DNA of 64,000 nt, taken from assembly GCF_963675165.1 (NCBI RefSeq), contig NC_087379.1:3042201-3106200 (forward strand), read 5' to 3'. Made by a program: the position numbers and the translations under genes. Positions 40,701 through 63,346 of this stretch are shown piece after piece. How positions within the stretch are numbered: position 1 is the first letter of the stretch; the number at the start of each line of letters is the position of its first letter. Under the pieces are notes generated by a model. It was not told the DNA's origin. It was given only the letters and a program-made list of their open reading frames with translations, and searched no databases. The DNA is from Halichondria panicea. Taxonomy: Eukaryota > Porifera > Demospongiae > Suberitida > Halichondriidae.

Positions 40701-43700
40701 GTGCAGCAATTTCTTTCCATCGAGTTTCAGTATTTTTACGCTTCAAAATGGGGCAGATAAGTCCTATGGCCATGGGAGACCCACGGCAGTACTTAACGAT
40801 TTCGCCGACGTAGGTGGAGAGGGAAGAGGGGTCGGCATTCAGCCAGCTGCCCATTAAGACACGAGATTCCGTATCAGTAAGATCTAGGTTATAAATAAAC
40901 ATTTATTATCCATGCAATTTCAACACATTCTGAGCAACTTTGGCAACAGAAATTGCATATGACTGCGTTGTTGTGAATGCAGGTGCATGTAGTGATCATG
41001 ACAGCTTAATCATAATTATAGGTACTGTTAGATATTATAGAAAGACTCCTAGCTTATACCACATTGACGCCACAACACTTCATTGGTCATTCATTTCTAT
41101 GTTCATATAGTGATACATACTACTGATTTTAACATCATTCGTACAACACTCCGGTTGTGAGACGTAAAACTAGCCGAGGGTTTGGCACTAGTTTTTATGC
41201 ATGGTCATGTAGCATACATGTAAATAAGATATACCACAACTATAATAATTATACTGTATTTACTTGATTAAACGCCCGGGCGTTTATTTCATATCAAAGT
41301 CTGTAAAGGGGGCATTTAAACGAGATGGCCACTTATTCGAAATGGGTGTTTATTGGTCATGTCTACTCCAAACTCTTGCACAGCAGCAGTTATTATGCGC
41401 TTTTTGGCTGCTGCCACAGCTCTCAGCTTAAGGTTACGGTATACTAATTGCTCATGAATAATTCATAAGATATTTATTTTCTTTATTTCTTATCACTACA
41501 TTATTTTTGTAACTAGCAATGATTATCAATGAAAAGAGAACATGAAACAATGCTAGCTATTATTGTAGCTAAAAGTATCTATGTCTTATAATCCAATGAA
41601 GTGGTCTGAGGTCAGCTGGAAAAAACTGAAAATTTTAGCGTAAAGTTTTATTGACTGCATAGCTTCCAGGTTGTCTTTCTGACCAGTATTCGATGCCTAA
41701 AGACTTACTGGAGGGCGACTCGAAGAGATCTTGTTCATAGAGACCTTACAGCAAAAAATATATCCTTGTTACTACTCTACAGTCGCCATATTAGCCTACA
41801 AAAACAGCTAGAAATGGCCGTAACTTTGTTTCAACTTACTCTCTTGGGAAAAACTCTTCGAGTCGCCCTGCCCCTTTATTCGTATAATAAGAAACAGCAG
41901 ACTATACGGTAAGGAGGGGTTTCTTGATGCTTAGAATTGACGCCAAGTGACCATTGCCAGATGAGAGCCATTTTACTAGTGTACTGCATTGAACACCCAC
42001 GCAAATTTGAGCGTGGGTGGAACAGTGTACCGTAACCTTAACTTAAGTCATAGGAGTGGTGTTTCTCCCTCTGTGTTGGTATCTCTCTCTCTCTCTGCCA
42101 TCATAAAAATCTATGCTGCCATGCTTGCAACGTGCTAGTTTAGCTCCACCCACAGTGCCACGCTCATACATGAGCGATTATTTAAGATGGGCGTTTATTG
42201 ACAAGGATAGAACTTTTACCATGGGCGTTTAAACAAGATGGGCGTTTAATCAAGTAAATACGGTACTCAAAAGATATAATTATTCTCTTTGTAGGTGTGG
42301 TGCACGTTAGTTTGCCTAACCATACCTATAGGATACAGCCTAGAAAGGGTAATTATGTGGAGAAAAAAATTGTTATATTCCAGCCAACCCTCACCTTCAG
42401 ATACTGAAATATTATGGACAATTCGAGTCTGGACTTCGCTAGCAATGGCGGCATTTCGTGAGGTGATGATCACATTGCGACAGGCAGAGAAGGCCTTAGC
42501 TACTTCAGGACTCCACACATCCTCCAAGATTAACAGGGATTTTTGGCTCTTGCTCATCACCTAGTAACAGCAAATTTTAATGAGATATATCAGGGCGGCA
42601 TACCCTCGCCGCTAAAATTTGCATTCAGGTACTAGTTGTATGTCTGAGTACATGTATGTGCAAAGGCAACCCTAAAACCCACCTAATTAACAACAATTTT
42701 CCAGGTGTATGTATGACCCTGGGTTTCCATAGCCGCCGATGTTACATACTAACAGGCAAGGTTTCATCTAGGATTAGAAGTTTAGGAGGAAACATTTCGA
42801 GAAATATTTGGCCATGCCCACTTGACCACACCCCCTATTACATGCTAATGCATCACAGTAGTTACACATATCATATAGACAGTAGATTCTACCTTATGAT
42901 TGGTGGTTACATGTAGTTGAATGTGATGATATCGATGTCATTATTCTACAACATTTGGGGGGGGGGGGAAGAGAGGTTAACCCCTACCCCACTAGATGAA
43001 ACCCTGACAGTTGAAATAACAATTTAATTACCTTATTTTATTAAATTTTTCTGGGGACAGTTAGACCCTCCCTTTCAAAGCGTGGCCCTTATTTCTGTAT
43101 GACACCTGTACTGTATATTGCTGGGGTTAATTGCACACTTTCCTGCCCTCAGGCTTACCACATACAACTCAAACAACAAAATGTGCTGTGGCTAGGCCTG
43201 TGCCAAATATTCAAATTTTTTCACCTATTATTCATTCACATTTGATCAGCCTATTATTCAACTTCATCACCCTATTATTCAAATTGATGTCACCTATTAT
43301 TCACATACATCACAGCGAAACAAAACACCTATAAAATATATAGCACCAAAAAATGGATCAGGTTCTGCCATGTAAAATGTGGGTGTGTTCTGAGCTACTG
43401 CGCATGTGCAACTCAATGAATATCATTAAACTGTTTTCACAGTGCCTATTATTCAAATTGTAAAAAGACTGCCTATTATTCAAAAAATTATTCCGGAATA
43501 TTTGGCACAGGCCTAGCTGTGGCTGACATAAAAATCTCTCCCATTTCCCTGAATTGGTTTGAAAGAGGCTTAGGTTGTTTGATATTATGTAACTGTTACA
43601 TTAGAGGCAAGAACAAGTGTACTCGTTATACTGCTTCCCTATTTGTTCTATATATTTATTATAATTATACATGCAATTGTATAAACACACACACATTTTG

Positions 43701-45132
43701 CAGGTAATCAGCGGCAGCCTCCACGGTGTGACGTGGTATATGTACATCATGTACATTTTCATCCAGTCTCAAAATGAGAGTCACTAGGTTATCGAGCAAC
43801 TTGGCTTTGTCCAAGTGATGATCAGCCATGTGACCCACTTCGAACCAGTTGACCCCACCGGGGAACACTGTCCGTAGCAAATCAGCATCCCTCACTGCCT
43901 CAGCTGTTAGCACCGTCTTTCCAGTGCCACCCATGCCATGGACCACCAGCCACCTGAAAGGAAGCGGTTGAAATAATAAAATTAGGGTGCAAAGGGTACG
44001 TATGTAATTTTAGGAACCATTTTTAGATGTGAAAAGAAAGGCCATGCAAGTAGCTAGCTTGGTAGCACACGTAATGCACATACGGCAATTGAGCACCCTG
44101 CATGCCATGCAAAATCTATGACGGAAACTAGCCGAGGGGTGGTCTATCTGCACAGCCGCACTCCACCTATTGCCCATCGCGATCTCTCTGCCAATTATAT
44201 GTAAACTGTACCAACAATATTAAATCTCAAAATTGTAGTCACACATTCTTACGTGTCTCCGTTAGCCATTTTTCTGAGTTCGTTGCGGATTTTCTCAATG
44301 AGGCCTTTCCTCTCCAGGTAGACCTTGGGCTGGAGTGGCACGCGCCCTTTCTCTGTCACCTTCTTCACTGCATGAGCACAGAAAGAGTGGCTCAATAAAT
44401 TGTACAGCTCCATAGCAAAAGGAAGGCAGTTTTATGTATACATGCACACCTTTGATAAGCCTGACTTCTTTAATGCCAAGTTGATTGAAAATATACCTGG
44501 GCCAGGGAAATTTTGGACAGATTTTTCTTTATCCAACTCAGAAGTATAATTGAACGAGTGTGCTTAGTTTACCTACCATATTTCTCGTCATCCATAACTC
44601 CAGACTCCTTGGAGAGCAGCTGTCCTATTTCTTTGCATTTCTCAGAGGAGCTCAACAGTACACGTACAAAACGAGTGAAATCTGAGGAGTCCCTCTCCTC
44701 CAAAAGATATAAGAGATGTTTCGCCTGGTTCTCAACTGTATCTTTCCCTCTGTGTGTGTGGAAAGGGCGGAGATTGCAGTGTGGTAGTGAGTGTGTAGTG
44801 TAGCATTTAGAAATTACTGTTTGTGCCGTGAAAAAGGAACAATCTTTTATGGCGATTTTGTCCAGCACGTAGCAATCTAGTCTAGTATAGTGCTGGTACA
44901 AAAGCGTCATGAGATTATGATTAATTATGATTGTGTAAATTCCAGCAACAAATTGGACTCACTCAGCATCATGTTTCTGCATGTCCTGTGTATTGATAAC
45001 TCCATTTGCCACAAGTTTGGGCAGTATCTCTACTAGACAGCCACCACTCAGTGAGCTCACTATTGCCTCCCGATGAGCACGCAGCGTGGCATGGTGGCCC
45101 CCCTTCAACACTCCTTCACCGTAGCTAAACAT
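31731..45132 (-). CDS. APAF1: APAF1 orthologue: CARD + NB-ARC + WD40
   Basis: Twenty-four exons on the minus strand give 1,304 residues, near the 1,248 of vertebrate APAF1. Exons: 44963-45132, 44577-44749, 44253-44367, 43695-43953, 42395-42560, 40619-40883, 40293-40468, 39939-40063, 39387-39629, 39121-39278, 38632-38758, 38409-38534, 38114-38245, 37768-37977, 37365-37487, 36978-37226, 36598-36762, 35202-35333, 34416-34577, 34012-34134, 33734-33865, 33397-33519, 33104-33223, 31731-31871. The start is an in-frame ATG just before the CARD (1-110, LRAHREAIVSSL). NB-ARC: Walker A HGMGGTGKT (158-166), Walker B LLILEDVW (248-255), sensor VIITSRNA, GSPMAIGLI, then winged-helix and helical domains. 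WD40 blades fill about 617-1304, ending VTIDNMGQLYVL like vertebrate APAF1. It should assemble an apoptosome and recruit a CARD caspase. Walker B has ED rather than DD. An acceptor at 40064-40080 follows a poly-C tract. Confidence 0.95.
32365..32701. mobile_element. MITE, family C, copy 2 (TIR TACCGTACTTATTCGA)
   Basis: A 337-bp element with inverted ends TACCGTACTTATTCGATTTA and the complement of TACCGTACTTATTCGATTAA, followed inward by GCGACCCTCCAAATATGCGA. It lies in the last intron of the APAF1 gene, opposite the other copy in the converging protease gene. Confidence 0.8.
35792..36371. mobile_element. Foldback element, 580 bp, 9-bp target duplication
   Basis: Long imperfect inverted arms (TAGCCTCGATTCAAGGCCGA... 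with GGTACCTATTGCA and GCGCATGCG on both sides). GTACTTATG flanks it exactly at 35783-35791 and 36372-36380. It lies in APAF1 intron 17. The arms match the palindrome at 2320-2378. No coding frame is convincing. Confidence 0.8.
41252..42265. mobile_element. MITE, family A, copy 2, split by a nested insertion
   Basis: Ends match copy 1 at 686-1056 (TACTGTATTTACTTGATTAA and its complement-type partner). The body is interrupted at a TTAA by the 606-bp insertion at 41432-42037. It lies in APAF1 intron 5. Confidence 0.85.
41432..42037. mobile_element. TTAA-targeting (piggyBac-type) non-autonomous element, nested
   Basis: 606 bp with inverted ends GGTTACGGTATAC / GTGTACCGTAACC, flanked by TTAA at 41428-41431 and 42038-42041. 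The uninterrupted relative at 686-1056 has one TTAA at the same position, so the empty site is known. TTAA duplication is a piggyBac hallmark. Internal arms (GGGCGACTCGAAGAG against CTCTTCGAGTCGCCC) form a second inverted repeat. Confidence 0.88.
43193..43515. mobile_element. MITE with 8-bp target duplication GCTGTGGC
   Basis: A 323-bp element with perfect 20-bp inverted ends TAGGCCTGTGCCAAATATTC and several internal CCTATTATTCA repeats. GCTGTGGC flanks it exactly (43185-43192, 43516-43523). An 8-bp duplication fits hAT-type mobilisation. It lies in APAF1 intron 4. Confidence 0.88.
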
Positions 45133-47668: not shown

Positions 47669-50432
47669 TTAAAGTTTGGCTACAGTTAGTTTTTCTTTCA
47701 TTGTAAATCTACTTAACCTGAGAGTTGATATGTCAAATGACAGTGGTCTGTCGAGAACCATTTCAGTTAGTACTTGACCAATGGCTGGAGCCAACTTGAA
47801 TCCAATACCTGCAAATCGATGTGTGTACGTAGTATGTTATGAAGAAGTCTGCTTGTACAGTAATTACATTTATATGTTCAAGCACTCAGTAAGACATTTA
47901 AAAAGGCAGGTACATATACCTGAGAACCCTGCAGCAAACAGCAGGTTAGAGTGACCTGGCACTTCATCCACAATTGGCAAAATGTCAGGAGTCAGCTAGA
48001 GGTGTGTGAATGAGAACACACAATATAGATACAAACTATAACCAGAGAAGGGCATGCTAATTTTGCACAGTTTGTGGCTGGGGTTAGGAGTTCAATTTTT
48101 CTTATCAACTAACTGAGTAGACACATGGCTCAAAGATGGCTGGTGTTGTAGCGACTCCTCTGAGGTAAGTTTTGATGAACTGGACCACCTTCTCCACTGA
48201 CTCTGGTCCAGCCCCTCCCTCATCACGATCATCAACCTCTATGTCACGAGCTGTTCGGTAATACACCTGCATGGAGAAAATGAAGCCTTATACTGCGGGC
48301 ACACATACATTCCATCGACATATTTACTGTCCCAATTTCTAGAAGCTGGTAATGAGAAGTAAATTTACGTACTTGGTCACCGGGAAAGCTCAGCCAATTC
48401 TTACCTTGATAAGTCCAGGGTATTCATATTGTGGGAAAGCATAAAACTTGTCCATCTTCAGCACCTCATTCTCATAGACTAGGATGGGGAATTTGTCGAG
48501 GGAGAATTTATCAGGACAGTCCACTTTAAAGTACAATACCTCTGCCCTCTGTACCTGAGGGGGCGGGGGTCAAATACATACCTACATGTATCATGACAGT
48601 ACATTACTGCTGTGACAAAGCATGGTGAGGACAACTCGGAAAAGAGGTATTGAGTACGAATGACATAATTATGAATGTTGCACAAATACTGGTAAAAATG
48701 GCTTAGAATGAGTGCATCACTTCAATTTAGGAGCCATAGATCTAAACTAGTCACATGCAGTATACCATTCGCTGGAAACTTTAAATGTTGGTTAAAGTAT
48801 CTTAGTTAGATACCTTGATAGGCAATTGCACCCCGAGCTTGCTGATGAGTTTGGGGGCCCAGGCTCCTGCAGTGATGACTACCTTCCGTGAGCTGAAGTC
48901 TCCCTTGTTAGTTCTCACAATCACCCTGTCTCCAGGAACAATGTCCATCACACAGTGGTTGTCAAGCAGCACACCACCTCCGCGCACAAACAAGTCCTGT
49001 AGATGAAGTTACACGTCATGTGCACTTCTCAGGGTTTTAACTTATGAGAGTGTGCGTGTGGGATTGCAGATATAGCTTTCAATATCTGAATAGTGGAATA
49101 TGTCTTATTACACCATTGTTTTCACTACGTACTTCTAGCACCATACTGTTTGAAATGCGACTTTGCATAACTTATTCGGTTAATAGACACACTTCGAGGT
49201 TACAGTAACATACGTACTTGAAAGGTTGCTACTATGAGTGAAGGTGCTAGCAGTTTAGTGGAAGGTCTGTTGTCCCAGACACAGCTGAAGTCGTCAGGCA
49301 TACTGATCTGGTCTGGAAACCTGCTGTTCATCTGGGGATTAGCAAACATAGGTAAAGAGGTGACGAAAGAGCAAAATACATATTGACCTACGTACACTAT
49401 ACACTGCACTGAACATGTTATGCCATCTCTGTATTGTAAACAACTATAAGATTGAGCCACCAATATTTGTCAACAGTAAAAACAGAATGAGAAAATGGAC
49501 TCATCCAATATTTGAGAGCTCTCCAGCATTATTAAGATCATTCAGTTCACATTAAACCAAGGGATTAGAATAACCAGAGGGAGTGAGAATGAGCTTCTAA
49601 AATATAGTAAATATAGTCAACAGGGAGGGTATACGTCATCCCGGAGATTGCATAAAAAATTGCCTATGATGTTAGTGACACAGAACCACTTATACCTCTC
49701 TGGCAGAGATGAGGGGCTGCTCCACACTGTCCTCCCTCACTGCATCAATTGTACGCTGTATGTAGGGACAGTCCTTGCGACCAAAGGACACAACACTCAC
49801 TGGTCTGTACATGCATAAATTAATTATTGTGTGAAAGCGCCTCAGTAGAAATATTCTAACACCATAGGCTGGTGCAGCGAAATCGTGGTAACTATTGAAA
49901 GCTATGTGTGGGGGATGAAGAAAATAGGGGCAGAAATTAGGGAAAGAGTGGTGGGTGGAGAAGAAAAGGAAAAGAGTAAGGGGTAGCGAGAAGAAAGCAG
50001 CTCTCTCCTTTTCTTTCCCACATCAGCTTACGTGCAGAGCTTTTTGCCACATTTATCACTGAGCTCCTGGTATACTTTAGCTGACTCAGCAAACATATGG
50101 TTGACAGCGTCCGGCTGAGTAGAAAACTTCCTCGTAAACCTTGACCCCCCGTGAGAGCTGCCTCGGGTGTGGAGGGCATGAAACTGCATTTACAGAACAT
50201 GTATGGTACAGTGACTAAACATTTGTACACACAATAACATGCTATAAAGACAGTTCTGTACATTACAGAAATAATTTTTAATTTGGCAGCACATGCAGCT
50301 TAATTAAGTGTTCTGCACCCTCTTGCTTACCTGCTCCAGAAGCAGCACTCTCCTGACTCCATTCTTGATGAGCTGGTATGCAGTAGAGCTTCCCTCCACC
50401 CCTGCTCCCACTACTATCACATCATAGTCCAT
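47669..50432 (-). CDS. Peroxisomal sarcosine/pipecolate oxidase-like, copy 1
   Basis: Nine exons on the minus strand (50331-50432, 50032-50183, 49696-49804, 49218-49331, 48814-48996, 48405-48554, 48114-48266, 47920-47995, 47669-47808) give 392 residues, close to the 390 of PIPOX. Phases agree throughout. An N-terminal Rossmann FAD motif, [15 protein letters not shown], is followed by [11 protein letters not shown], the flavin-contact motif of the MSOX/PIPOX family. EPCVYSLTPD contains Cys318, the expected covalent FAD attachment site. [14 protein letters not shown] is the conserved C-terminal motif. The protein ends AKL, a canonical peroxisomal PTS1. It should oxidise N-methyl or cyclic imino acids (sarcosine, L-pipecolate) with O2, releasing H2O2 inside peroxisomes. 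A tandem paralogue starts 289 bp upstream. Confidence 0.93.
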
Positions 50433-50720
50433 TTCTCATTTTCCCAATATTTTATCGAGGGCGGCAATTAACATAAAGAATTGTGTACATGTTGTGACTT
50501 TTGAGATTGTACATGTAGAATCTATTTTTTTACAATACTCTTCAATCTATGTTCAACCTTCCCTATAGGTTTAGCTGCGTATGTTTAATTATTACGATTC
50601 TAGTGAACAAGCAAACAGCTTAGATATAAATTATTATAGGCCAGGGATCACAATCAGAACATGAGCACACGAGGTGTGTATGAATGAATGTTAGAAAACA
50701 AAACACAAAACGCACAAAAT
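50433..50720. promoter_or_regulatory. Spacer between tandem oxidase genes
   Basis: The 288 bp between copy 2's stop and copy 1's start must contain copy 2's 3' UTR and the promoter of copy 1. No specific motif is recognised. Confidence 0.35.
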
Positions 50721-53700
50721 TTAAAGCTTTGGTTTAAAAAACCTGGCTACTCTAAACGCTGTGAGATCAAAGGACAACGATTTGTCAAGTGTCATTTCAG
50801 TGAGCAATAGTCCAACTGTGGGAGAAATCATAGCCCCTCTGCCTGCAGGGATGATTGTCAGAACGCTCTATTGAAGGGTTACAAAATCAGTTATTTGGTG
50901 AAATGAGCAGTCACCATTTCATAATTACAATGCAGAGATGATGTTTAGAGGCATGAAACTCACCTGACATGCCAGCAGCAAACACGATGTTGGGGTGTGC
51001 AGGAACTTGGTCAATGATGGGCAGCCTATCGTCGGTCATCTGAACCAAGCAAATCATAGTTTTCATGTAAAGCAGCTTTATACATACACCTATATACAAT
51101 GGGAGAATGTGGCTAAGCTGACGTAAAAGGATAAAAGTACGTACAAGAGGCTCTGAGAGTGTCTTCAAAGATGATAAAGCAGCAAGCATTCTACTAGTTT
51201 TATCAACCAATGAAAGATTGCAGTAAACTAGGCCTAAGGGGTACGTGTTAGTAAATGACCACTGTGGGTATATATCCCTTGTACTTTATTACACAGGTAC
51301 ATGTATATGTATTACTTAACTAGGCAGATTTGCACTTTACAGAGTAACATTACTGCGACAATCTTACGGAGTAGACACAAGGCTCAAAGATGGCTGGTGT
51401 AGTAGCGACTCCTCTGAGGTAAGTTCTGATGAACCGGACCACCTTCTCCACCGACTCTGGTCCAGCCCCTCCCTCATCACGATCATCAACCTCTATGTCA
51501 CGATACGTGCGATGGTATACCTGGCAATTTAGAGCAATAGAAATATTATTAACTAACTAATGTCACGATAATGCCACGGTATACCTGGGGAATTCGGGCA
51601 ATGTTTTTGCTAATACATAGGCTAGGGGCAAAACTACAAATCCGTAGAAAATTAAGTGCTATTTACTGCAACCAAACTCACCTTAATCATGCCAGGGTAT
51701 TCAAACTCAGGGAAAACAAAGCAGTGCTCCTTGCCTCTCTCGTATATCACCCACGGAAACACCTCAGGTTTGAAATCATCTGGATTATCCACCTTCCAAT
51801 AAAGTACCTCAGCTCTTAATATCTGCACATCCACAAAGAAACAAATTGAGTCAGTGCATTTGTGTAGTGCACACATGAAGTTACTTGATGGAGGTTGATT
51901 GAGTAACAATGGTAACTAAATGCTGTAGCTAAAGATTTTAGAAAAAAACTGTGAGCACCTTGATAGGCAACTGCACCCCGAGCTTGCTGATGAGTTTGGG
52001 GGCCCAGGCTCCTGCAGTGATGACCACCTTCCGTGAGATGAAGTCACCCTTGTTAGTTCTCACAATCACCCTGTCTCCAGGAACAATGTCCGTCACACAG
52101 TGGTTGTCAAGCAGCACACCACCTCCGCGCACAAACAAGTCCTGTCAAGGAACATGGTAAATAATATCAATGCGGCGGTTATTGCTACTTGCAGGCCTAA
52201 TTCAGAGTGAGCTAAAGAAACGGCAGACAGAGTTCTGTGAAATACTCCACTATGTTATACAACCATTCACTGCAGGTACCTGGAAGAGACACAATATTGC
52301 TGTCATGTTTAGGAGCTTCATGTCTGGCTCAATGAGACCAATGTAGTCCTCAGGCACACACAGTCGTGAGGAGTAGCGCTGATTGATCTGGAATAATTAA
52401 ACTTAGCTACTGGAGTTTGCAGAATCTTTGCAACACACCAGTAAAAGTGTAGAGCGTTACGCGTTCCTTATATGGATTTTGTGTACACACTGTGGTCTGT
52501 TTTACTAGGAGCATTTCCCATATAAGGAACCACAGTGCTACACACTTCTATTCATGTGTTGCAAAGATTCTGCAATCTCCAGTATAATATAGTAGTTAGA
52601 ATAACTACCTAGTTATATATTCATAGCTCCTACAGTGCAAATCAATCATACCCTCATGATAAAGTAAGAGAGCGAGTCCATTTTGAAACCAAATTAGCGG
52701 GCCCTAAGTGCTACCTTAGAAAAATATGTCAATCTAATTCTACAATTACACAGCTGCACACATAGCTGCACCTCCTTTGCTGAAATGACTGTGCTAGGTA
52801 TACCATCTTTCTTGAGGCGGCTAATAGTCTGGTTTAGCACAGGGTCACTGCCTGAGTTGAAACTGAGCACATCTATTGGACTAATGATGTGTGTCATGGG
52901 AACGATCTTGAGACAATGCATACGCATACCAAACGTAAGACACATGAATCATGTGAATGTAATTACATAATTACAAATATGACACAGACTGCACGAAAAC
53001 AAAAATTAAGTCAGCCCCACATTTACCAATAAAGCTGCTTCCCATTCTCTCTCTGTAACTCAGCAAACATGTCAATAGAGAGGGTGACCATTCTAGAGAA
53101 TTCCCTCAGATGACTGGTCACTGCTTGCCTAGTACACCTGGACCCACCGTGAGAGCTTCCTCTGGTGTGCCGCGCATGAAACTGTATGAATTAAATCGAT
53201 TGAAGTAATGTACGTTAGCCATGTGGGTTGAAAAATACGGCAGTGATAGGTAGCTCCTCACCCTAATAGAAGCACCAAGATCAAAAATAGGTGCCCAGTA
53301 AATTCTAGATAAAAATTATAACGCGGCTTTTAATCAAAGCTAAAATATACAGTAGATTCTCGTTAATCCAGGACAGTGCAGCTTGGCCGGACCGAGAGAT
53401 GCCGTATTTCAGAAAATAGCCGCAGCTAAAAAGCGGTCCCTATAATCTAATGACTCGAGGATAATGAATCATTAATTTAACGAATTTGATCTGCCAAACC
53501 ACACTCAAAACGTCATATCTGCCCGTGATAAATGTATAAAAAACCTATACTTTGAGGCAGCCATTACTGGCCGGTATACGGAATAGCGAGTGGCCACATT
53601 TCAGGGTGAAGTTTGTGCAGTAAACATCTAGCTAGCAATCCGTGCCAAACCAAATGGCCGGTATATCGAGGTGGCTGTACTTCAGAGAGCCGGAATAGCG

Positions 53701-54013
53701 AGAGTCTACTGTACATACAAAAATAATTATCCACTTATACAGCCTCATGGAACAGTTATTAGACCTACTATATAGTAACGCTATTAAAGCACCACTCCAA
53801 CACAAGTATTAATCTAGAGTTCTATTTGTGTAATTTTTGAGGTGCTGTAAATAGAAAGACGGTATAAAGTTACTACTATGTGACGAGAACATCTAAGGCT
53901 GTAAACTTTACCTGCTCCAGAAGTAGCACTCTCCTGACTCCATTCTTGATGAGCTGGTATGCAGTAGAGCTTCCCTCCACCCCTGCTCCCACTACTATCA
54001 CATCATACTGCAT
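50721..54013 (-). CDS. Sarcosine/pipecolate oxidase-like, copy 2 (diverged; one doubtful junction)
   Basis: Exons on the minus strand: 53912-54013, 53027-53181, 52772-52906, 52280-52387, 51959-52141, 51682-51822, 51368-51520, 50964-51039, 50721-50842. The FAD motif [26 protein letters not shown] and the flavin-linking EPCVYS are kept. The usual GFSG-GFKLAP motif has become [11 protein letters not shown], losing the conserved lysine. It ends PKL, a non-canonical PTS1. Exon 2 ends in phase 2, but the only AG before the next coding block gives an immediate stop. A 22-nt micro-exon inside that 120-bp gap (about 52967-52988, donor GTAATT) would restore frame to 398 residues; otherwise the gene is frameshifted. 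Exons 1, 5 and 7 are nearly identical to copy 1 while exons 2, 3, 4 and 6 are strongly diverged. It may have a new substrate or be decaying. Confidence 0.75.
52408..52584. mobile_element. Short foldback MITE
   Basis: A 177-bp element with inverted arms of about 45 bp starting TACTGGAGTTTGCAGAATCT (right arm complement TACTGGAGATTGCAGAATCT), plus inner arms around CCTTATATGG/CCATATAAGG. It lies in the intron between coding blocks 3 and 4 of oxidase copy 2. Confidence 0.75.
53350..53711. mobile_element. pogo/Tigger-like non-autonomous element, copy 2
   Basis: 362 bp with ends CAGTAGATTCTCGTTAATCC and the complement of CAGTAGACTCTCGCTATTCC, flanked by TA. It is the inverted counterpart of 5597-6026, with shared internal blocks (GGCCGGTATA, GCTAGCAATCCGTGCC). 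It lies in the first intron of oxidase copy 2. Confidence 0.78.
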
Positions 54014-54072
54014 AATAATGATAGCCGGATAGGTAAAGATCATCAATAACAATGTACATTCTACTGTACTGC

Positions 54073-54134
54073 TAGACTGGCGGCGACAGCCCCTCGTCGC
54101 GCTACACGCTCGGGCGGCTGTCACCGCCAGTCTA
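54073..54134. repeat. GC-rich hairpin
   Basis: 19-bp arms TAGACTGGCGGCGACAGCC and GGCTGTCACCGCCAGTCTA (one mismatch) around a 24-base loop. CTACTGTACTGC occurs directly on both sides, a possible target duplication. It lies just upstream of the second oxidase gene. Confidence 0.65.
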
Positions 54135-54298
54135 CTGTACTGCATGGACAACACTGCATGGACACAGCCTAGCCACTGCTGAAGCAACTCAAGCCCCAGT
54201 ACAGTGTGCATAAGTTTTAGGCCTGGGAGCCTGGGAGACATACTATACAGAGAGAGACAATTGGGTATGTAAAAACCACCAGACTAGATGATCTCTAA

Positions 54299-54341: not shown

Positions 54342-54548
54342 GATTAAATCATTGATTTTATAGTTCACCTTTCTCATAGAGTTAGAATTAGAATTCTAAA
54401 CTGTTTTGATGCTTTTGTATCTAAAGTGATCAAACAGCTGTATCATCAACACACACTGCACTATGCACACATGTGACCAGGGATAAAGTCCCTATGTGAC
54501 AGCATGCTAAATACCGTGCACAATTAGTCCCTCCATAAAAGGTAACTA

Positions 54549-55288
54549 TAATTGTATGAGAGGTGAATAGTGCCAAAAAAAAAACGAATTTGCTGTGTTA
54601 GGAGGCGGCGGTGTTTACTTGGTGGCGGCGGCTTAACCTCGAGGGTGGCGGCAGTGTCAGTTGTTGGCGGCGCTTAACCTCCAGGGTGGCGGCAAGTGTC
54701 AGTTGGTGACGGCAATGTGGTTGGTGGCGGCGGCTTAGCCTCGAAAATGTAAAGGCCAGCCGTGAATATAGAACCACTTGACCTTAGCTAATAGAGAAAC
54801 AGAGGGTTGCTCCAGCTAGCCTCGAGACCATGAGCAGTCTGATATCAGGTCAGCGCTAGAGCAACTGTCTGGACTGGTCTTGACCACTCCACAATCCCTC
54901 CCAGACACTAAAAACAAGCTTGAGAAGTAGTCTGCCAAGATAACTTTAATTAGTTAAAGGTCAAGTGGTCCAACATTATCTTATTATTCACATCCACATT
55001 AATATATTCGAGGCTAAGCCGCCTCCACCAAGTAAACACCCGACGTAACCTCGAGGTTAAGCCGCCGCCACCGTAGATAGAGTCTCTACACTCTCATGCC
55101 GCCACCAAAAAACACCAGCCGCCACCATAGATAGAAGAAGGAAACAGCCTCCGCCACATTCGAGGTTAAGCCGCCGCCACCTAGTAAATACCCGCCGCCA
55201 CCTTCGAGGTTAAGCCGCCGCCACCAAACAAACACCCCCCCCTCCTAAAAACATCCTCCTTTTGGCACTACTCACCCCTCATATAATT
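54549..55288. mobile_element. Large GGC-rich foldback element, about 740 bp
   Basis: Outer inverted ends resemble each other: AATTGTATGAGAGGTGAATA with AGTGCCAAAA on the left, and complement-type AATTATATGAGGGGTGAGTA with AGTGCCAAAA on the right. Each arm carries a minisatellite of GGTGGCGGCGGCTTAACCTC units, opposed in orientation (54596-54745 and about 55005-55245), around a central unique segment. It ends 83 bp before the first receptor-like gene. No long open frame supports a protein. Confidence 0.75.
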
Positions 55289-55371
55289 GTACTTGGTTAC
55301 AATCTAGTTACAGTAATGCATCTGCTAGTGTAAACATAAGCTAGCCACTGATCTGTAGTTTCACAAAAAAG

Positions 55372-58300
55372 ATGGTTTCCTTGCTAGCAGTTATTCTAGC
55401 TTTACAACTAGTGCAGGGCTCTTACAGCATTGATGAATATGAAACTGTGATTGCTGTAACGAGTTCCACACATTCTGAGCTAAATCCTGACTGTCTCAAT
55501 GGATCTCACTTCCAATACAGTATCGATGAGTTACCTTCCAACATATCGAATGGAACTTTATTGAGATTTTGCTCCAACTCTATAGTGCTAAAAAGAAACA
55601 TGGCACTTTCTGATGCTAACCGAATAGCTTTCGTGGGCTTTGAATTTACTAAACTGACTTGTATTGATGAGAGTGGTGTGGGAATAGAATTGAGCAACAT
55701 TCAAGATTTGGAAATAAACAACATCGCTATTGAAGCCTGCGGGAGAGTTGCCAGCATAGACACATATCCTTATCGAAACGTCAAGGCCAGTCTCATCATT
55801 CAGAATTCTGTTAACATTAATCTGAGGAATGTGACGATCACTAGTAGCCCTGGGACTGGACTGGCCTTATTCTACAACAGCGGATCAATCGAAATCATTG
55901 ACTCTATTTTCGAGAGAAGTGGACTTGATGGTCAAACAGGTGGCAATGGAGTATATGTAGAAACTGGACCCTCCACCTATATAGTTAGTGATTCACCAGC
56001 AAATTATGATATTAGGAACTGCTCCTTTCTAAACAACAGCGCTGTTACTGGGAAAGATAGTACTATCAAAGGTTTTAGTCGTTTTGACAAAGGTGGCGGG
56101 TTGTGTATGTATGTTCGAGGCAGTGAAAATGTCGAAATTGATATCACAGACTCCCTGTTTATTGGAAATCAAGCTCAAAAGCATGGAGGTGGTCTCTTTG
56201 TTGCTTACAATGGAAAATGCACAAACAACACTGTAATAGTTTCGAAAACTGAATTTCGTACCAATACAGCAAAATACGGTGGTGCAGTGTACTCGGGATA
56301 TCTACACAGTCGGTACCCTAACTTTGTGACCCCTCAAAATAGCTCATTGAGGTTCGTCTTCGTAAACTTCATTGATAACAGAGCTGAGTATGGTGGAGGT
56401 TTTAGCTTATTCTCTACCAAGACCCCTAACCAAGACTCCAATGACAAAGTTAGACTTGAAAACTGTTATTTGACTGAAAACAGCGGCCAGTATGGGGCAG
56501 CTGTAGCTCTTCTCCCCAATGCTTGGAACATTAACACACCAGGTTACTTACCCACTCCAGTTTTTGTGAACTGCTCCTTCACAAAAAATGTCGTTATGAG
56601 GAAACAATTATCAAACATTGGTCAGTATTACAACGAGTACTCCAAGGGCTCTGGAGCGTTTAACTGTTTCAATCACCGAGTCCATTTTGAAGAAAATACA
56701 ATTTTTGAAAACAATATCGGAACTGCAATGTTTCTCGACTCATGTGTGAGCATATTCAAAACGAACTCTTTTACACGTTTCGAGAATAACACTGGTTACC
56801 AAGGAGGTGCTGTGTATGAGCTGTCTTCAGTGATATTTATTAGTGACGGGTCCACCTTACGTTTCAATGGCAACACGGCTGATGATAAAGGCGGGGCTAT
56901 ATACGAACACACATCGTCGATGCTCATTTACCACTATTCAAAAACATGTTTCATTGATTACAACGAAGACAGAACAGAGGTCGCAGATAGAAACATTACA
57001 GTATCTTTCAGGGACAATTACGCTGGTCGATACGGCCATTCGATTTACGCATCCTCTTTGAGTCCCTGCTACAATCGTTTTTCTTTCACCGCTTCCGATT
57101 TATCTATGGACATTTTCAATCAAGTCGGTAACTTTACTTACTCACCCGCTGGAAGAATCAAAGAGCTAGCCACCGCAGCTAACCACTCAAACGTAACTGA
57201 TGAGAACTGGTCGGGCCATCTTTCGTTCATTCCTGGAAATGAGATGGAGCTTCCTATTGTTGATATCGATGATTTTGGGCAGGATGTACAAATGAGTTAC
57301 TTGGTAACGATTGAAAACCATGGTGATGCCAATGTTTCAAGCAATCACTACAACTCAGAGATTTCAAGCCACAAAATTTTATTGTTTGGAAAAGAAAACG
57401 ACAAAGCCACTGTTACATTGTCTGACACATCCCCTCGTCAAAATGCTGTTTCGTTCCAAATTACGATGCTACCTTGCCCTCCTGGGTTTATTCTAGATCG
57501 AGTGTCAATGGAATGCATCTGCTCATTCAATACGGATGAAACTTACGTTGGAATCGATAATTGCAACCTCACACTTCACAGAGCGTACAGCAAAAAAGGA
57601 TACTGGTTTGGCTATAAAAACAACCAAACTGAGAATGAAGACTCTCTCATTTCTGGGTATTGCCCTTCTGGTTTTTGCTCAACAGGGGGTGAGAGACGCC
57701 TTCTTCCCGGGACAGCTAATCGAGAAGAACTAAATGAAATCATGTGCTCCTATTCACGAAGTGGGACCCTCTGTGGCCGCTGTACAGACACCTCTTCAGT
57801 ATATTACCACAGCATGCAGTTTAAGTGTGAGTCAGACTCGTTATGTCACCTGGGCTGGTTGTTTTACATACTCAGCGAATTAATACCTGTTACTATAGTT
57901 TTCCTCCTGATTATGTTTTTGAACATTACCTTCACTTCGGGCCTAGTTAATGGGTTTATTTTCTATAGCCAAGTAATCGAGGTAGTGCGTCTTCTATCAA
58001 GCGATTTGATTCGCTCTTCACCGACAATCAAATTTATTAATAACATATATTCGCTGATTTATTCGAGCTTTTCTCTGGATTTTTTCTTCCATGACAATCT
58101 GTCGTACTGTCTCTGGAAAACTAGTAAAGCAATCGACATGGTAGCATTTAAATATGTAACGCTGCTGTATGCCTTCTGCCTTGTAATTTTTATCACGGTT
58201 ATCATAAAGAAATGCACAATGAAGTGTTGCTACAGTTATAAGCTTTCTCGCTACTTCTCCTGGCTCACAAAGTACTTCAGTTTTCATGGCAACATTATTC

Positions 58301-59118
58301 ACGCTCTTTCTGCATTTTTGATTCTTTGCTATGCTCAATGTGCTCAATCGTCCGTACTCTTATTGACAAGTGTAACGGTCTATAATAAGGGCTCGAATTT
58401 GTACAAAACATTGGTGTACTATGATGGAGAGATTGAATGGTTTAGTGTTGAACATTTGCCATATGCCTTGCCCGCTATTTTTCTGTCAATATTTGTCCTT
58501 ATCCTACCACCAATTCTCCTGATCATCTATCCACTACACAACAAAGTACTCTCACTCTTGAGAATATCCGAAACAAAGTGTGTACAGTTTCTATTCCGAC
58601 CTCTCGATAAACTAAAGCCATTCTTCGACTCATTCCAAGGCTGCTTTAAGGATGAATTTCGGTTTTTCTCCGGTCTTTACTTTATTTATCGTTTCTTCAT
58701 CATGTTCAATGTTCTTTACAACTACTTGCAAGACAGCTTCTTTTTTATCGAAATCCAGCTACTGCTCATGTTGGTCGTCCATGCTGTATGTCAGCCATAC
58801 AAGAAGCGATTACACAATATAATCGATACCCTCCTGTTCGGAAACCTTGCTGTCATCATTGCTATCACGTACTACAATCTAACCTATTCTAACACCCTAT
58901 CCGCTACGAATATCGATGTTACTGGATTATCAGTTGTGTCATGCATACTCATTATCCTACCAATTGTTGTGGCTGTCTGTATTTTGGTTTACGCTTTCTG
59001 TGTGAAAAAGTGCTGGATGAAAGTACGTGCACAGCGAAAGGAAGGTATTGATATGATTGAAATCGACAATGATGAATTCCCCGACAGAGGTGTTTATGAA
59101 TCCTTTGAAAAGTTCTAG
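55372..59118 (+). CDS. Intronless beta-helix multi-pass membrane protein 1
   Basis: A single uninterrupted 1,248-codon frame. A signal peptide (residues 1-16, MVSLLAVILALQLVQG) leads a long ectodomain (about 20-690) rich in Asn, Gly and N-glycosylation sequons. It carries repeating GGGL/GGAV/GGAI turns each followed by short beta strands and FxxN-type motifs, the pattern of parallel right-handed beta-helix (PMP-like) repeats. A Cys-rich stalk follows (about 702-826, CPPGF, CICSF, LCGRC). Then come about 8-10 hydrophobic segments (about 827-1215), beginning GWLFYILSELIPVTIVFLLI, with the conserved loop LKPFFDSFQGCFKDEFRFFS. The tail is short and acidic, with NDEFPDRGVYESF. The next gene is a close paralogue. 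I do not recognise a characterised family; the architecture suggests a surface receptor, adhesion protein or transporter, which is inference. A near-upstream foldback element leaves only about 80 bp of unique 5' flank. Confidence 0.88.
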   Translation: MVSLLAVILALQLVQGSYSIDEYETVIAVTSSTHSELNPDCLNGSHFQYSIDELPSNISNGTLLRFCSNSIVLKRNMALSDANRIAFVGFEFTKLTCIDESGVGIELSNIQDLEINNIAIEACGRVASIDTYPYRNVKASLIIQNSVNINLRNVTITSSPGTGLALFYNSGSIEIIDSIFERSGLDGQTGGNGVYVETGPSTYIVSDSPANYDIRNCSFLNNSAVTGKDSTIKGFSRFDKGGGLCMYVRGSENVEIDITDSLFIGNQAQKHGGGLFVAYNGKCTNNTVIVSKTEFRTNTAKYGGAVYSGYLHSRYPNFVTPQNSSLRFVFVNFIDNRAEYGGGFSLFSTKTPNQDSNDKVRLENCYLTENSGQYGAAVALLPNAWNINTPGYLPTPVFVNCSFTKNVVMRKQLSNIGQYYNEYSKGSGAFNCFNHRVHFEENTIFENNIGTAMFLDSCVSIFKTNSFTRFENNTGYQGGAVYELSSVIFISDGSTLRFNGNTADDKGGAIYEHTSSMLIYHYSKTCFIDYNEDRTEVADRNITVSFRDNYAGRYGHSIYASSLSPCYNRFSFTASDLSMDIFNQVGNFTYSPAGRIKELATAANHSNVTDENWSGHLSFIPGNEMELPIVDIDDFGQDVQMSYLVTIENHGDANVSSNHYNSEISSHKILLFGKENDKATVTLSDTSPRQNAVSFQITMLPCPPGFILDRVSMECICSFNTDETYVGIDNCNLTLHRAYSKKGYWFGYKNNQTENEDSLISGYCPSGFCSTGGERRLLPGTANREELNEIMCSYSRSGTLCGRCTDTSSVYYHSMQFKCESDSLCHLGWLFYILSELIPVTIVFLLIMFLNITFTSGLVNGFIFYSQVIEVVRLLSSDLIRSSPTIKFINNIYSLIYSSFSLDFFFHDNLSYCLWKTSKAIDMVAFKYVTLLYAFCLVIFITVIIKKCTMKCCYSYKLSRYFSWLTKYFSFHGNIIHALSAFLILCYAQCAQSSVLLLTSVTVYNKGSNLYKTLVYYDGEIEWFSVEHLPYALPAIFLSIFVLILPPILLIIYPLHNKVLSLLRISETKCVQFLFRPLDKLKPFFDSFQGCFKDEFRFFSGLYFIYRFFIMFNVLYNYLQDSFFFIEIQLLLMLVVHAVCQPYKKRLHNIIDTLLFGNLAVIIAITYYNLTYSNTLSATNIDVTGLSVVSCILIILPIVVAVCILVYAFCVKKCWMKVRAQRKEGIDMIEIDNDEFPDRGVYESFEKF

Positions 59119-59608
59119 CCTGAGTGTGTAAACAACTGAAATTATTTATATCCTTAAATTAATGTATTGTTTAATTATAACGCTGTTGATAATGTATTAT
59201 TCTTATAAGTTTGTTTTGCATTCATGAATTGATCTATAATTATTGTGAACACTCCACCATGGCAAAACAACATGCATTAGATCTACTATGACTTGTACAC
59301 GTAGATTCTATAATTATGGACACACCATTGTATGTGCAGCAGGTGTAGATCTAGTGGATTAGGGAGTGTGACAATACTGTGTGTGCATGCTCTAATTAAT
59401 GGCATTACTGAATTATCTACATTGTACACTAGATATAATTGTACCATAGTGTTATCAAATCTACATTGTGCTGAGAGTGCACGATTGTGCCATAGAAGAT
59501 TGTACAACCAACCACAATGGTCTCAACAGATGGTTAAATTATGACCTATTGCACTCTTATCTGATGTTCCCACAGAATGATGTATCAGATGCATCACAAC
59601 AAGACAAG
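59119..59608. other. Spacer between the two intronless genes
   Basis: 490 bp of AT-rich sequence that should include the 3' UTR of gene 1 and the promoter of gene 2. The frame of gene 2 stays open upstream to 59468, but the conserved start is at 59609. TTCCCACAG at 59567-59575 resembles a splice acceptor and could mark a 5' UTR intron. Confidence 0.45.
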
Positions 59609-62600
59609 ATGCATATGCTACTTCTAGCCACGTTACTGGCTGCTTTGGCTCTACACCCAGCTAATGCATACCAGGAGTATCCAACTGTTATTGCAGTGTA
59701 CAATGCTACTGGTGAGTCTGCTATTGTGAATTGTAGTAGTGGCGCAAACTACCGCTACGAAATCAATGACCTACCACTTGGTAATATCACCAGCGGGACA
59801 TTATTGAGACTGTGCTCCAAGTCCTTTGTACTAACGAAAAATGTGTCGCTCTCCAATCTTGAAAACATTGCCTTAGTTGGCTACAAATTTCCAACAGTGA
59901 GGTGTGAGAAGGAAACAAATCTAGGTATTGTCCTAGGATCCATTCGCAATCTTGAGCTACACAACTTCACAGTTGATGGTTGTGGAGTGATGACGACTAT
60001 TAATCCGAAAGCCGACCACAACATTAAGTCTGGTGTTATCATTCAGTATACCACTAATATCACTGTGAATGGTATCAACGTTACGAAAAGTCCTGGGAGT
60101 GGTTTGGCCCTATTTTACAACAATGGATCAATTCGAGTTGAAAATTCAGTGTTCGGAAAAAATGGGGTGGATGGGCACACAGGTGGGAATGGGGTCTACA
60201 TGGAAACTGGGCCTTCAACATCTATTGTCAGCGGCTTAGTAGCAGAATACACATTTACACAATGTGATTTTCTTTTTAATACTGCCGTAACAGGCAAAGA
60301 CAGTATCATCAAAGGCTTCAGTAGATTCGACAAAGGAGGTGGCCTATGTGTGTATATCCTTGCCAGTGAAAAGCATAAAGTAACCATTTCAAATAGTCGT
60401 TTTATAGGAAATCGAGCTGAACATTATGGAGGTGGACTATTTGTTAGCTATATTGGTAAAGCAAGGGACAATAATGTTAGAGTTTCAAATTGTAACTTTT
60501 CGATGAACACTGCAACATTTGGAGGTGGAACGTATGCAGGATACCTCCATACACGTTTGCCAGTTTTAGAAACACCACTAAATTGTTCTCACATTTACGA
60601 ATATCTGAATTTCACGGAAAACAGTGCGAAATTTGGAGGAGGTTCTAGTGTTTTTGCTTCAAAGACTGCAAATAATGATTTCAGTGCAATTGTTAACTTT
60701 GTGAACTGTACTTGGACAAAGAACATAGGTCAGTACGGTGCAGCAGTAACTATTCTCCCTAACGCCTGGAACTTGTACACAGAAGGTTATTTACCAACTC
60801 CAAGATTCATAGGCTGTACTATATCCAATAATCGAGTGAGAGACAGCAACATTTTCAAGAAAGGAGTCTATGCTGAGTATTCCAAGGGCTCGGGAGCATT
60901 TTATTGTTATGGTCATAACATTTCGTTTCAAGGACTAACGCTCATAGAAAACAACCAAGGCTCAGCAATGTACTTGGGCTCATGCTTAGCCATTTTTCAT
61001 AAGAGTTCTATCACATATTTTGTAAATAACACAGGCTACCAAGGAGGAGCTATATACGAACTATCTTCTGTAGTGTACGTTCAAGATGATTCTACTCTCT
61101 ATTTCTCAGCAAACACAGCTGAAGACAAAGGCGGAGCCATTTATGAGCATACATTTTTCATGCATATATATGATTACTCCAAGACATGCTTCATTGACTA
61201 CGTCGATAATATCGAAGAAGTGGCCGAACGTAACATCTCAGTTACATTTATTGATAACTTCGCCGGTAGGTATGGCCACTCAATATATGCCTCTTCTTTA
61301 CAACCTTGTTACAATCGCTTTTCTTTTTCTGCCGCAAACCTATCTGTTGACATATTCGACCAAGTCGGTAATTTCACCTACTTCCCTGAAAACAGACATA
61401 TGGAAATCGCGACTGCCATCAATCACTCAAATATTACTGCAGAAGAGTGGTCAGAGAATCTTCTATTCATCCCTGGAAAGAACATGAGATTACCTTTTGT
61501 TGACTTAGACGATTTGAACCAGGAAGTTCGAACAAGCTACTTAGTAACTATTCAAAATGGCTCTAATGTGACCGTTAATCGAGATTATACCGATATTTCA
61601 AGTAACATTCTACTTTTGTATGGAAAAGATAATACCACTGTTACATTATCCGACACATCTTCCCGACAAATAGCACTCACTTTTAATATAACGATGCAGG
61701 CCTGTCCTCCAGGTTTCATACATGATGATGGCTCTCAAGGCTGTGTATGCTCCGCTGGTTCAAATGAGAGTTATGCTGGAATTGAACATTGCAAAGTAAG
61801 TCTCATGAGAGCTTATAGTAAATATGGGTATTGGATTGGCTATATGGAGAACAAAACTGAAAATGAAGACTCATTGATTTCTGCATATTATAATCCCACT
61901 GAAAATTTCTCTGATCCCACTGGGAACGGCCGTCTACTTCCCGAAACTGCTGACAGAAAAGAGCTGAATGCCATTATGTGCGATGAGACACGGACAGGAT
62001 TTCTCTGCAGTCAGTGCATGGAGAATATGACAGTGCACTATCATAGCCGGGAATTTGCATGTAAGTCCAACAAGTATTGTACCTTTGGCTGGTTGTTTTA
62101 CATTCTTAGTGAAATAGTTCCTGTCACCATAATCTTTCTTTTCATTATCTATTTTAACATTCCTTTCACTTCTGGGCTTGTAAATGGCTTTATATTTTAT
62201 TGCCAAATGGTTGAAGTGATTCAAATAGTTTCCAGCGGCCTCATCTCTTTGTCAGAAACCGCTCAGATTATAAATAAAGTTCATACTTTCATATACTTGA
62301 GCACCACCTTAAATTTTTTCGTTGTTGATGACCTTTCATTTTGCCTATGGGACAATGCAAGTGCAATGTCAATTGCGGCTTTCAGTAATGTTACTCTTCT
62401 CTATGCACTCGTTCTTGTGGTACTTGTTACCCTTGTGTTCAGAAGCTGCTCCTTTAGGTGTACATGTAGACATAACTCTTCAGGGTACTTTCCACTTGTA
62501 CCAAACCCGAAATTTCAAGGCAGCATCATTCACGGCTTAGCTGCATTCCTGATTCTTTGTTATGCACATTGTGGTCATTCCTCATTGCCGTTGCTCCTGT

Positions 62601-63346
62601 CTGTGAGTGTATACAGCAAAGGACCAACTGCTTACCAGAAAATGGTGAATGTTCAACCAGATATTGAGTGGCTTAGTGGTCAGCATTTACCTTATGCAAT
62701 ACTGTCTCTTCTACTGGTGTTCTTCATGCTTTTCTTACCTCCAATTCTTCTGGTTGTGTACCCACTGCATTACAAAGTCCTAGCTTTCTTAAGAATTGCC
62801 GAATTTCGATGCGTCCAAATTGTATTTAGCCCTCTGGATAAATTGAAACCCTTCTTTGATTCATTTCAAAGCTGCTTCAAGGACAAATTTCGTTTTTTCT
62901 CTGGACTCTATTTCATTTATAGACTTAGTATGATTGTGACTGTTTTTAACCACAGTGCCCAAGTAAGCTTTTTCTTTATCGAAGTTCAATTGGTGGTTAT
63001 GCTTACTCTTCACGCTTTATGCCAGCCATACAAAGAACATTTCCACAATGTGATTGACACTCTCTTATTTTGTAATCTTGCTGTCATCAATGCTATCACA
63101 TACTACAACGTCTCTGCTTCTATGGCAAACGTGACGGATCTAAACCTCTCGGCAACTACCTGGTTACAAACGATACTGATCATTTTGCCTTTACCATTTG
63201 TGTTGGTGTTTTTAGTTGCACAAACATCTTGTGTACGTGCTTGTTGCAGAAATTCAAGCTTAAAAAGTGTTTCTTCTGAGGAAGATGACTTGCCAGACAG
63301 AATGCAAGTCAACTATCACACACAGGACAATCAAAACAGTAGCTAG
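59609..63346 (+). CDS. Intronless beta-helix multi-pass membrane protein 2
   Basis: A single 1,245-residue frame, collinear with gene 1 along its whole length. The start was placed at the methionine giving a signal peptide (MHMLLLATLLAALALHPANA) and matching the paralogue's N-terminus; the frame is open 47 codons further upstream. The beta-helix ectodomain keeps the conserved blocks NGVYMETGPSTSIVSG, DSIIKGFSRFDKGGGLCVYI and GGAIYELSSVVYV. The Cys-rich stalk (ACPPGF, CVCSAG, FLCSQC) begins near 697, and the membrane region GWLFYILSEIVPVTIIFLFI near 826. The loop reads LKPFFDSFQSCFKDKFRFFS, and the tail keeps an acidic DDLPDR motif. Both genes lack introns while every multi-exon neighbour has many, so the pair probably arose by tandem duplication of an ancestral intronless (perhaps retroposed) gene. 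No characterised function is known to me. Confidence 0.88.
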   Translation: MHMLLLATLLAALALHPANAYQEYPTVIAVYNATGESAIVNCSSGANYRYEINDLPLGNITSGTLLRLCSKSFVLTKNVSLSNLENIALVGYKFPTVRCEKETNLGIVLGSIRNLELHNFTVDGCGVMTTINPKADHNIKSGVIIQYTTNITVNGINVTKSPGSGLALFYNNGSIRVENSVFGKNGVDGHTGGNGVYMETGPSTSIVSGLVAEYTFTQCDFLFNTAVTGKDSIIKGFSRFDKGGGLCVYILASEKHKVTISNSRFIGNRAEHYGGGLFVSYIGKARDNNVRVSNCNFSMNTATFGGGTYAGYLHTRLPVLETPLNCSHIYEYLNFTENSAKFGGGSSVFASKTANNDFSAIVNFVNCTWTKNIGQYGAAVTILPNAWNLYTEGYLPTPRFIGCTISNNRVRDSNIFKKGVYAEYSKGSGAFYCYGHNISFQGLTLIENNQGSAMYLGSCLAIFHKSSITYFVNNTGYQGGAIYELSSVVYVQDDSTLYFSANTAEDKGGAIYEHTFFMHIYDYSKTCFIDYVDNIEEVAERNISVTFIDNFAGRYGHSIYASSLQPCYNRFSFSAANLSVDIFDQVGNFTYFPENRHMEIATAINHSNITAEEWSENLLFIPGKNMRLPFVDLDDLNQEVRTSYLVTIQNGSNVTVNRDYTDISSNILLLYGKDNTTVTLSDTSSRQIALTFNITMQACPPGFIHDDGSQGCVCSAGSNESYAGIEHCKVSLMRAYSKYGYWIGYMENKTENEDSLISAYYNPTENFSDPTGNGRLLPETADRKELNAIMCDETRTGFLCSQCMENMTVHYHSREFACKSNKYCTFGWLFYILSEIVPVTIIFLFIIYFNIPFTSGLVNGFIFYCQMVEVIQIVSSGLISLSETAQIINKVHTFIYLSTTLNFFVVDDLSFCLWDNASAMSIAAFSNVTLLYALVLVVLVTLVFRSCSFRCTCRHNSSGYFPLVPNPKFQGSIIHGLAAFLILCYAHCGHSSLPLLLSVSVYSKGPTAYQKMVNVQPDIEWLSGQHLPYAILSLLLVFFMLFLPPILLVVYPLHYKVLAFLRIAEFRCVQIVFSPLDKLKPFFDSFQSCFKDKFRFFSGLYFIYRLSMIVTVFNHSAQVSFFFIEVQLVVMLTLHALCQPYKEHFHNVIDTLLFCNLAVINAITYYNVSASMANVTDLNLSATTWLQTILIILPLPFVLVFLVAQTSCVRACCRNSSLKSVSSEEDDLPDRMQVNYHTQDNQNSS

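Follow-up and report, generated by a model that had tools for sequence, protein, structure and literature searches.

Candidate surface receptor-channels in a sponge: a large intron-free family joining a predicted beta-helix to a nine-pass, TRP-like membrane domain

The TRP-like domain of fungal Flc/Pkd2-type proteins is PF06011, and this TRP-like channel family is known chiefly from fungi and giant viruses. Most fungal members carry an ML-like N-terminal domain, and one of them, Flc1, is linked to the regulation of calcium homeostasis and to flavin transport (PMC9600462). Here we describe two adjacent genes of the sponge Halichondria panicea, gene 1 and gene 2 (products p1 and p2), which lie in a 64,000-nucleotide stretch of contig NC_087379.1 (positions 3,042,201 to 3,106,200; hereafter the window). 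An earlier reading of the sequence alone, which we call the original prediction, had proposed two intronless collinear frames, each combining a beta-helix, a Cys-rich stalk and a multi-pass membrane domain, and our analysis bore this out at the same coordinates. We tentatively favor the reading that both genes belong to a large family of intron-free surface receptor-channels made up of the whole chain of helix, stalk and TRP-like domain. Of this, we predict the architecture, compute the evolution and infer the receptor role, the ligand, the coupling and the conductance.

Gene 1 (55372..59118, forward strand; G000:C3:3097572-3101315 in the match to the sponge's own genome) is a single open frame of 1,248 amino acids, and gene 2 (59564..63346) follows on the same strand after a gap of 445 bp as a single frame of 1,260 amino acids if its first ATG is used. 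Gene 2 probably starts 15 codons downstream, at 59609 (1,245 amino acids), since homology to its nearest paralogue, L014, begins 5 bases ahead of that ATG and an acceptor-like site lies upstream of it. Both coding frames are intron-free, and the two proteins are 54% identical across 1,223 aligned columns. The window's third-longest stop-to-stop frame reaches just 354 amino acids, so the lengths of these two frames are not due to chance.

A tblastn search of the sponge's own genome, 131 Mb in 39 contigs, with p1 as query gave 49 matches. With same-frame matches joined, these merged into at least 37 gene places, spread across 13 contigs (C2, C3, C4, C5, C7, C8, C10, C11, C12, C13, C14, C16 and C17). 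The paralogue count proposed in the original prediction thus has a lower bound, 37 of 586 first-look candidates having been scored. Thirty-one of the 37 places are a single open frame of 1,059–1,489 amino acids with no internal stop; among the other six, one has an internal TGA, one has a TGA and a TAA, and four have shorter frames of 551–731 amino acids. A single-frame protein of more than 1,000 amino acids was present in 25 of 30 retrieved loci, some being cut N-terminally by the end of the locus. Seven places cluster within 3.90–4.22 Mb of C7 and five within 5.82–5.88 Mb of C4, and members cluster elsewhere too; no additional copy turned up over the 99 kb that follow the window downstream. 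Two members, L034 (541 amino acids) and L035 (639 amino acids), have no beta-helix and represent natural stalk-plus-membrane forms; they group as one clade (Shimodaira–Hasegawa-like approximate likelihood ratio test, 100), a pattern suggestive of a single loss of the ectodomain. Judged from their sequences, p1 and p2 are members of a large, maintained family of predicted cell-surface proteins.

Coding frames without introns, together with a long L013/L014 homology that starts at the ATG, could indicate recent retrocopies or non-functional frames. We consider this extremely improbable: the ratio of nonsynonymous to synonymous substitution (dN/dS) was below 1 in the helix, stalk and membrane part, and long open frames are kept in deeply diverged members. 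Moreover, the C14 copy of gene 2 (L014; DNA 90% identical) has directly upstream of it a decayed gene 1 relic, which covers the C-terminal part and carries in-frame stops (L014:938-1196, G000:C14). Because the order is kept, the pair was duplicated as DNA with its flanks, and one member was lost.

The p1 helix is predicted to be a right-handed parallel beta-helix of the polysaccharide-lyase (pectin-lyase-like) type. POMP_repeat passed its cut-off in both proteins; the PMP profile scored 30.1 bits in p1 against a cut-off of 20.6, and 13 bits, under the cut-off, in p2; and PF02415 was found at E ≤0.1 in 17 of 23 family members. The top fold matches of the helix were lyases and epimerases, which act on polysaccharides, and this might suggest that the proteins are active membrane-bound polysaccharide lyases or hydrolases. 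That is very unlikely, because across 23 members (eight truncated N-terminally) no D, E, H, K or R occupied an invariant or nearly invariant helix column, a scan which addresses conservation across the family, so that single members could still be catalytically active. In the stalk, C702, C715, C717, C731, W745, G747, C792, C801, C804 and C819 (p1 numbering) are invariant in all 25 members compared. DUF7630 (PF24633) was among the profile matches of 3 of 27 members, weakly and late in the stalk (best E 7.9e-4); in a separate scan, two members scored 11.1 and 11.3 bits against its curated 27-bit cut-off. An AlphaFold model of the near-full protein from 23 family rows gave a predicted local distance difference test score (pLDDT) of 80.0 and a predicted template-modeling score (pTM) of 0.56, the latter making the relative placement of the domains unsure.

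The original prediction had put the number of membrane helices at 8–10, with a conserved loop. Modeling the stalk and membrane part with AlphaFold from 27 family rows (pLDDT 83.6, pTM 0.81) narrowed this to nine transmembrane (TM) helices (p1 825-850, 857-876, 920-952, 971-998, 1029-1062, 1099-1116, 1119-1140, 1146-1175 and 1184-1221), with an additional short helix (884-901) ahead of TM3, and placed the loop between TM5 and TM6. On balance, loop charges favor a predicted N-out, C-in topology: mean lysine-plus-arginine counts across 27 members were 0.1 (TM1-2), 5.0 (TM3-4), 7.6 (TM5-6), 1.9 (TM7-8) and 4.1 (tail) in the presumed inside segments, and 4.0 (before TM1), 3.5 (TM2-3), 2.3 (TM4-5), 0.1 (TM6-7) and 0.4 (TM8-9) in those presumed outside. 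In 19 of the 27 members, however, the short TM1-2 loop, which is assigned inside, contains a sequon, mild evidence against this topology. With N-out, C-in, the conserved TM5-TM6 loop would be cytosolic. Invariant Pro and Gln also lie within the membrane helices.

When the membrane domain was compared with BFVD by Foldseek, the first-ranked match was a Megaviridae 'TRP ion channel', A0A5J6VHI1 (E 3.5e-4, prob 1.00, TM-score 0.53 by target, root-mean-square deviation 9.1), which we take to carry PF06011. This match tips the balance toward a receptor-channel and away from an unspecified module. It also qualifies the expectation that the membrane part would match no characterized family, which was borne out in Pfam, NCBIfam and PDB sequence but less clearly at the level of fold; the helix fold is already known, and for the membrane fold there is at least one relative with a name. 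Across the membrane part of the scanned members no Pfam model reached its cut-off, so routine annotation would overlook the family, and no solved channel fold was matched. PF06011 was absent from the 15 families that hmmscan listed for 27 members at E up to 10, a range in which very weak matches can be lost to the filters of HMMER, and by this hidden Markov model test the family lies outside PF06011. No ML-like profile (PF14558, PF02221) was among the listed matches; the predicted beta-helix and Cys stalk occupy the N-terminal part.

In the receptor-channel that we propose, the non-catalytic beta-helix would bind extracellular glycans or other repetitive or extended surfaces (microbial, matrix or self/non-self), and the Cys-rich stalk would couple this binding to the membrane domain. 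The nine-helix TRP-like domain, a putative divergent relative of the giant-virus TRP-like domain, would then open a cation path, probably for Ca2+, or signal via the conserved TM5-TM6 loop. A transporter of the kind proposed for fungal Flc proteins, in which the beta-helix captures a lipid, flavin or sugar and the membrane part moves it, could draw on the link between Flc1 (PF06011) and flavin transport (PMC9600462). The helix does match polysaccharide-acting enzymes, but it has no conserved charged residues of a substrate site. Large gene families are also commoner among receptors than among transporters, and we regard a transporter as unlikely.

Between p1 and p2, the domains have diverged to an equal degree except for the loop, which is 80.5% identical. 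Among 13 full members without near-duplicates, mean pairwise identity was 30.0% for the helix against 31.0% for the membrane part (membrane higher in 44 of 78 pairs), and the majority share, gaps excluded, was 0.44–0.47 in the helix, 0.41 in the second beta-rich part, 0.49 in the stalk, 0.50 in the membrane part, 0.69 in the loop and 0.36 in the tail. For p2 versus L014 (pair L013/L014), dN/dS was 0.28 in the helix, 0.24 in the stalk, 0.17 in the membrane part and 0.014 in the loop (41 codons). The C-tail was looser (0.51 in this pair and close to 1 in both L012/L013 and L022/L025), and the stalk reached 0.67 in some very close pairs with few changes. The loop stands out as strongly constrained, as originally predicted. 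Such conservation would suit an adhesion-type receptor whose beta-helix binds matrix or neighboring cells and whose nine-pass domain anchors the protein and signals through the loop, as would the lack of a solved channel match and the helix-less L034 and L035, which show that the membrane part can stand alone. Nine helices with invariant Pro and Gln inside them nevertheless exceed the needs of an anchor, and the fold match is to a named channel; we hold this alternative possible but rather unlikely.

The original prediction also pictured a variable recognition module on a fixed one. This fails between p1 and p2 and is weak across the family, but it draws support from recent divergence, where dN/dS was higher in the helix than in the membrane part in five of six pairs tested (L036/L038 being the opposite). 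The bootstrap interval was clear of zero in four of the six and spanned zero in L027/L028; three of the pairs, all from C7, share members and thus are not independent. Within the C7 cluster, divergence at fourfold-degenerate sites fell from 0.34 to 0.06 at about residue 773 in L022/L030, from 0.33 to 0.10 at about 847 in L022/L026, from 0.30 to 0.01 at about 976 in L026/L030, and from 0.33 to 0.06 at about 773 in L023/L030. These breaks, in four pairs that are not independent, were matched by 0 of 5,000 permutations, and an early break in L026/L032 (about residue 175) by 4 of 5,000. Ten pairs were tested in all, and the remaining five gave no clear break (permutations reaching it: L022/L023 207, L023/L025 1,143, L027/L028 639, L013/L014 2,832, L036/L038 999). 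Since synonymous sites are affected, the cause is not protein constraint but exchange of the 3' (stalk plus membrane) half. We conclude that C7 members, in at least this one cluster, exchanged 3' halves while their ectodomains remained distinct. In L022–L025, the helices are near-identical and the membrane halves a little more diverged, so the direction of exchange need not be constant.

Diverged ectodomains over homogenized membrane halves would also be expected of an allorecognition or immune repertoire, in which ectodomain diversity is itself the function and gene conversion keeps the other half, a reading compatible with a channel. Residues 381-510 of L022/L026, where the proportions of nonsynonymous and synonymous differences are 0.26 and 0.30 (pN and pS), point the same way, as does the gene birth and death seen in the relic on C14. 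Whole-helix dN/dS, however, is ≤0.46 in all six pairs, with no sign of positive selection, and family-wide the ectodomain and membrane part are about equally conserved; we rate this reading no higher than the transporter.

If the membrane half of the proposed receptor-channel is a TRP-like pore, it would tie a fungal and giant-virus channel family to an animal surface-receptor repertoire and provide a candidate for sensing glycans, microbes or neighbors in animals without neurons or adaptive immunity. The mosaic C7 cluster is a natural experiment with a uniform signaling half and differing outer halves. It is a more doubtful proposition that an early-branching animal has a repertoire of beta-helix-gated TRP-like receptor-channels in which conversion keeps a common pore under differing sensors for microbe or self/non-self recognition. 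Just as doubtfully, a sugar-enzyme scaffold would there have turned into a sensor, in a receptor class for which we found no animal description in the open-licence PubMed Central literature; nor did searches of that literature list any description of this architecture, the original prediction having known of no functional one.

Table 1. Predicted features of p1 and p2 (window positions)
Feature	Positions	Strand	Basis
p1 signal peptide-like start, MVSLLAVILALQLVQGSYSI	55372..55431	+	hydropathy
p1 parallel beta-helix, residues ~49-530	55516..56961	+	
p1 second beta-rich extracellular part, residues ~531-694	56962..57453	+	predicted secondary structure
p1 Cys-rich stalk, residues 695-825	57454..57846	+	family alignment
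p1 nine-pass membrane domain, residues 826-1216, predicted N-out/C-in	57847..59019	+	AlphaFold, loop lysine-plus-arginine counts, fold match to viral TRP channel
p1 TM5-TM6 conserved loop and TM6 start, LDKLKPFFDSFQGCFKDEFRFFSGLYFIYR, residues 1078-1107	58603..58692	+	
p1 predicted cytosolic C-tail, variable	59020..59115	+	19% identity to p2
p2 parallel beta-helix	59756..61201	+	alignment to p1; POMP_repeat E 1.6e-7
p2 Cys-rich stalk	61682..62080	+	alignment to p1
p2 nine-pass membrane domain	62081..63250	+	alignment to p1
p2 TM5-TM6 conserved loop, LDKLKPFFDSFQSCFKDKFRFFSGLYFIYR	62834..62923	+	alignment to p1

Upstream of gene 1, at 54544-55294, lies an element resembling a miniature inverted-repeat transposable element, with terminal inverted repeats (arms of 35 nt, 86% complementary; inner arms of 55 nt, 91%), an outer span of ~750 bp and internal GGTGGCGGCGG repeats. 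It ends ~80 bp before the start codon and could carry or disrupt a promoter. Further upstream, on the minus strand, exons resembling an FAD-dependent oxidase (sarcosine/pipecolate-oxidase type, by eye) span 48805-54283, where near-identical exon-like frames (48805-49008 and 51941-52144) probably reflect a tandem duplication. An APAF1-like gene, also by eye, lies on the minus strand at ~36948-44009, with an NB-ARC-type P-loop (GMGGTGKT) frame and WD40-like frames scattered among many short ones, and fits intron-rich neighbors and an animal genome. Annexin-like frames (by eye) follow a proline-rich repeat frame on the plus strand at 19722-23329.

Several known systems resemble parts of these proteins. 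Chlamydial Pmp proteins (PF02415, TIGR01376) have similar GGA[ILV]- and FxxN-like repeats building a beta-helix, but the sponge proteins have a eukaryotic signal peptide-like start and nine predicted helices in place of an autotransporter barrel, no autotransporter profile being among the matches listed for p1 and p2. The likeness is in the repeat and does not establish kinship. Compared with pectin-lyase-like lyases and epimerases (RbmB, AlgE4, PL6) and phage tailspikes, the sponge helix lacks conserved charged residues and is predicted to be membrane-anchored. Animal TRP channels and polycystins (PF00520) would share channel function, as proposed here only, and polycystins also bear large ectodomains; we rejected membership because PF00520 was not listed and nine helices are predicted rather than six. 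A G-protein-coupled receptor (GPCR) was rejected on the nine predicted helices and the absence of a listed 7tm profile in 27 members; one of the 27 did list NCD3G, a Cys domain that belongs to family 3 GPCRs, at E 6.5, and GPCR rows in the structure matches were at background. The TRP/Flc proteins of PF06011 (fungal Flc1, Pkd2 and TrpR) and viral A0A5J6VHI1 resemble the sponge family in placing an N-terminal domain ahead of a multi-pass one, and for A0A5J6VHI1 the Foldseek match suggests a similar membrane-domain fold, whereas the sponge family has a predicted beta-helix and Cys stalk, many genes and an animal genome.
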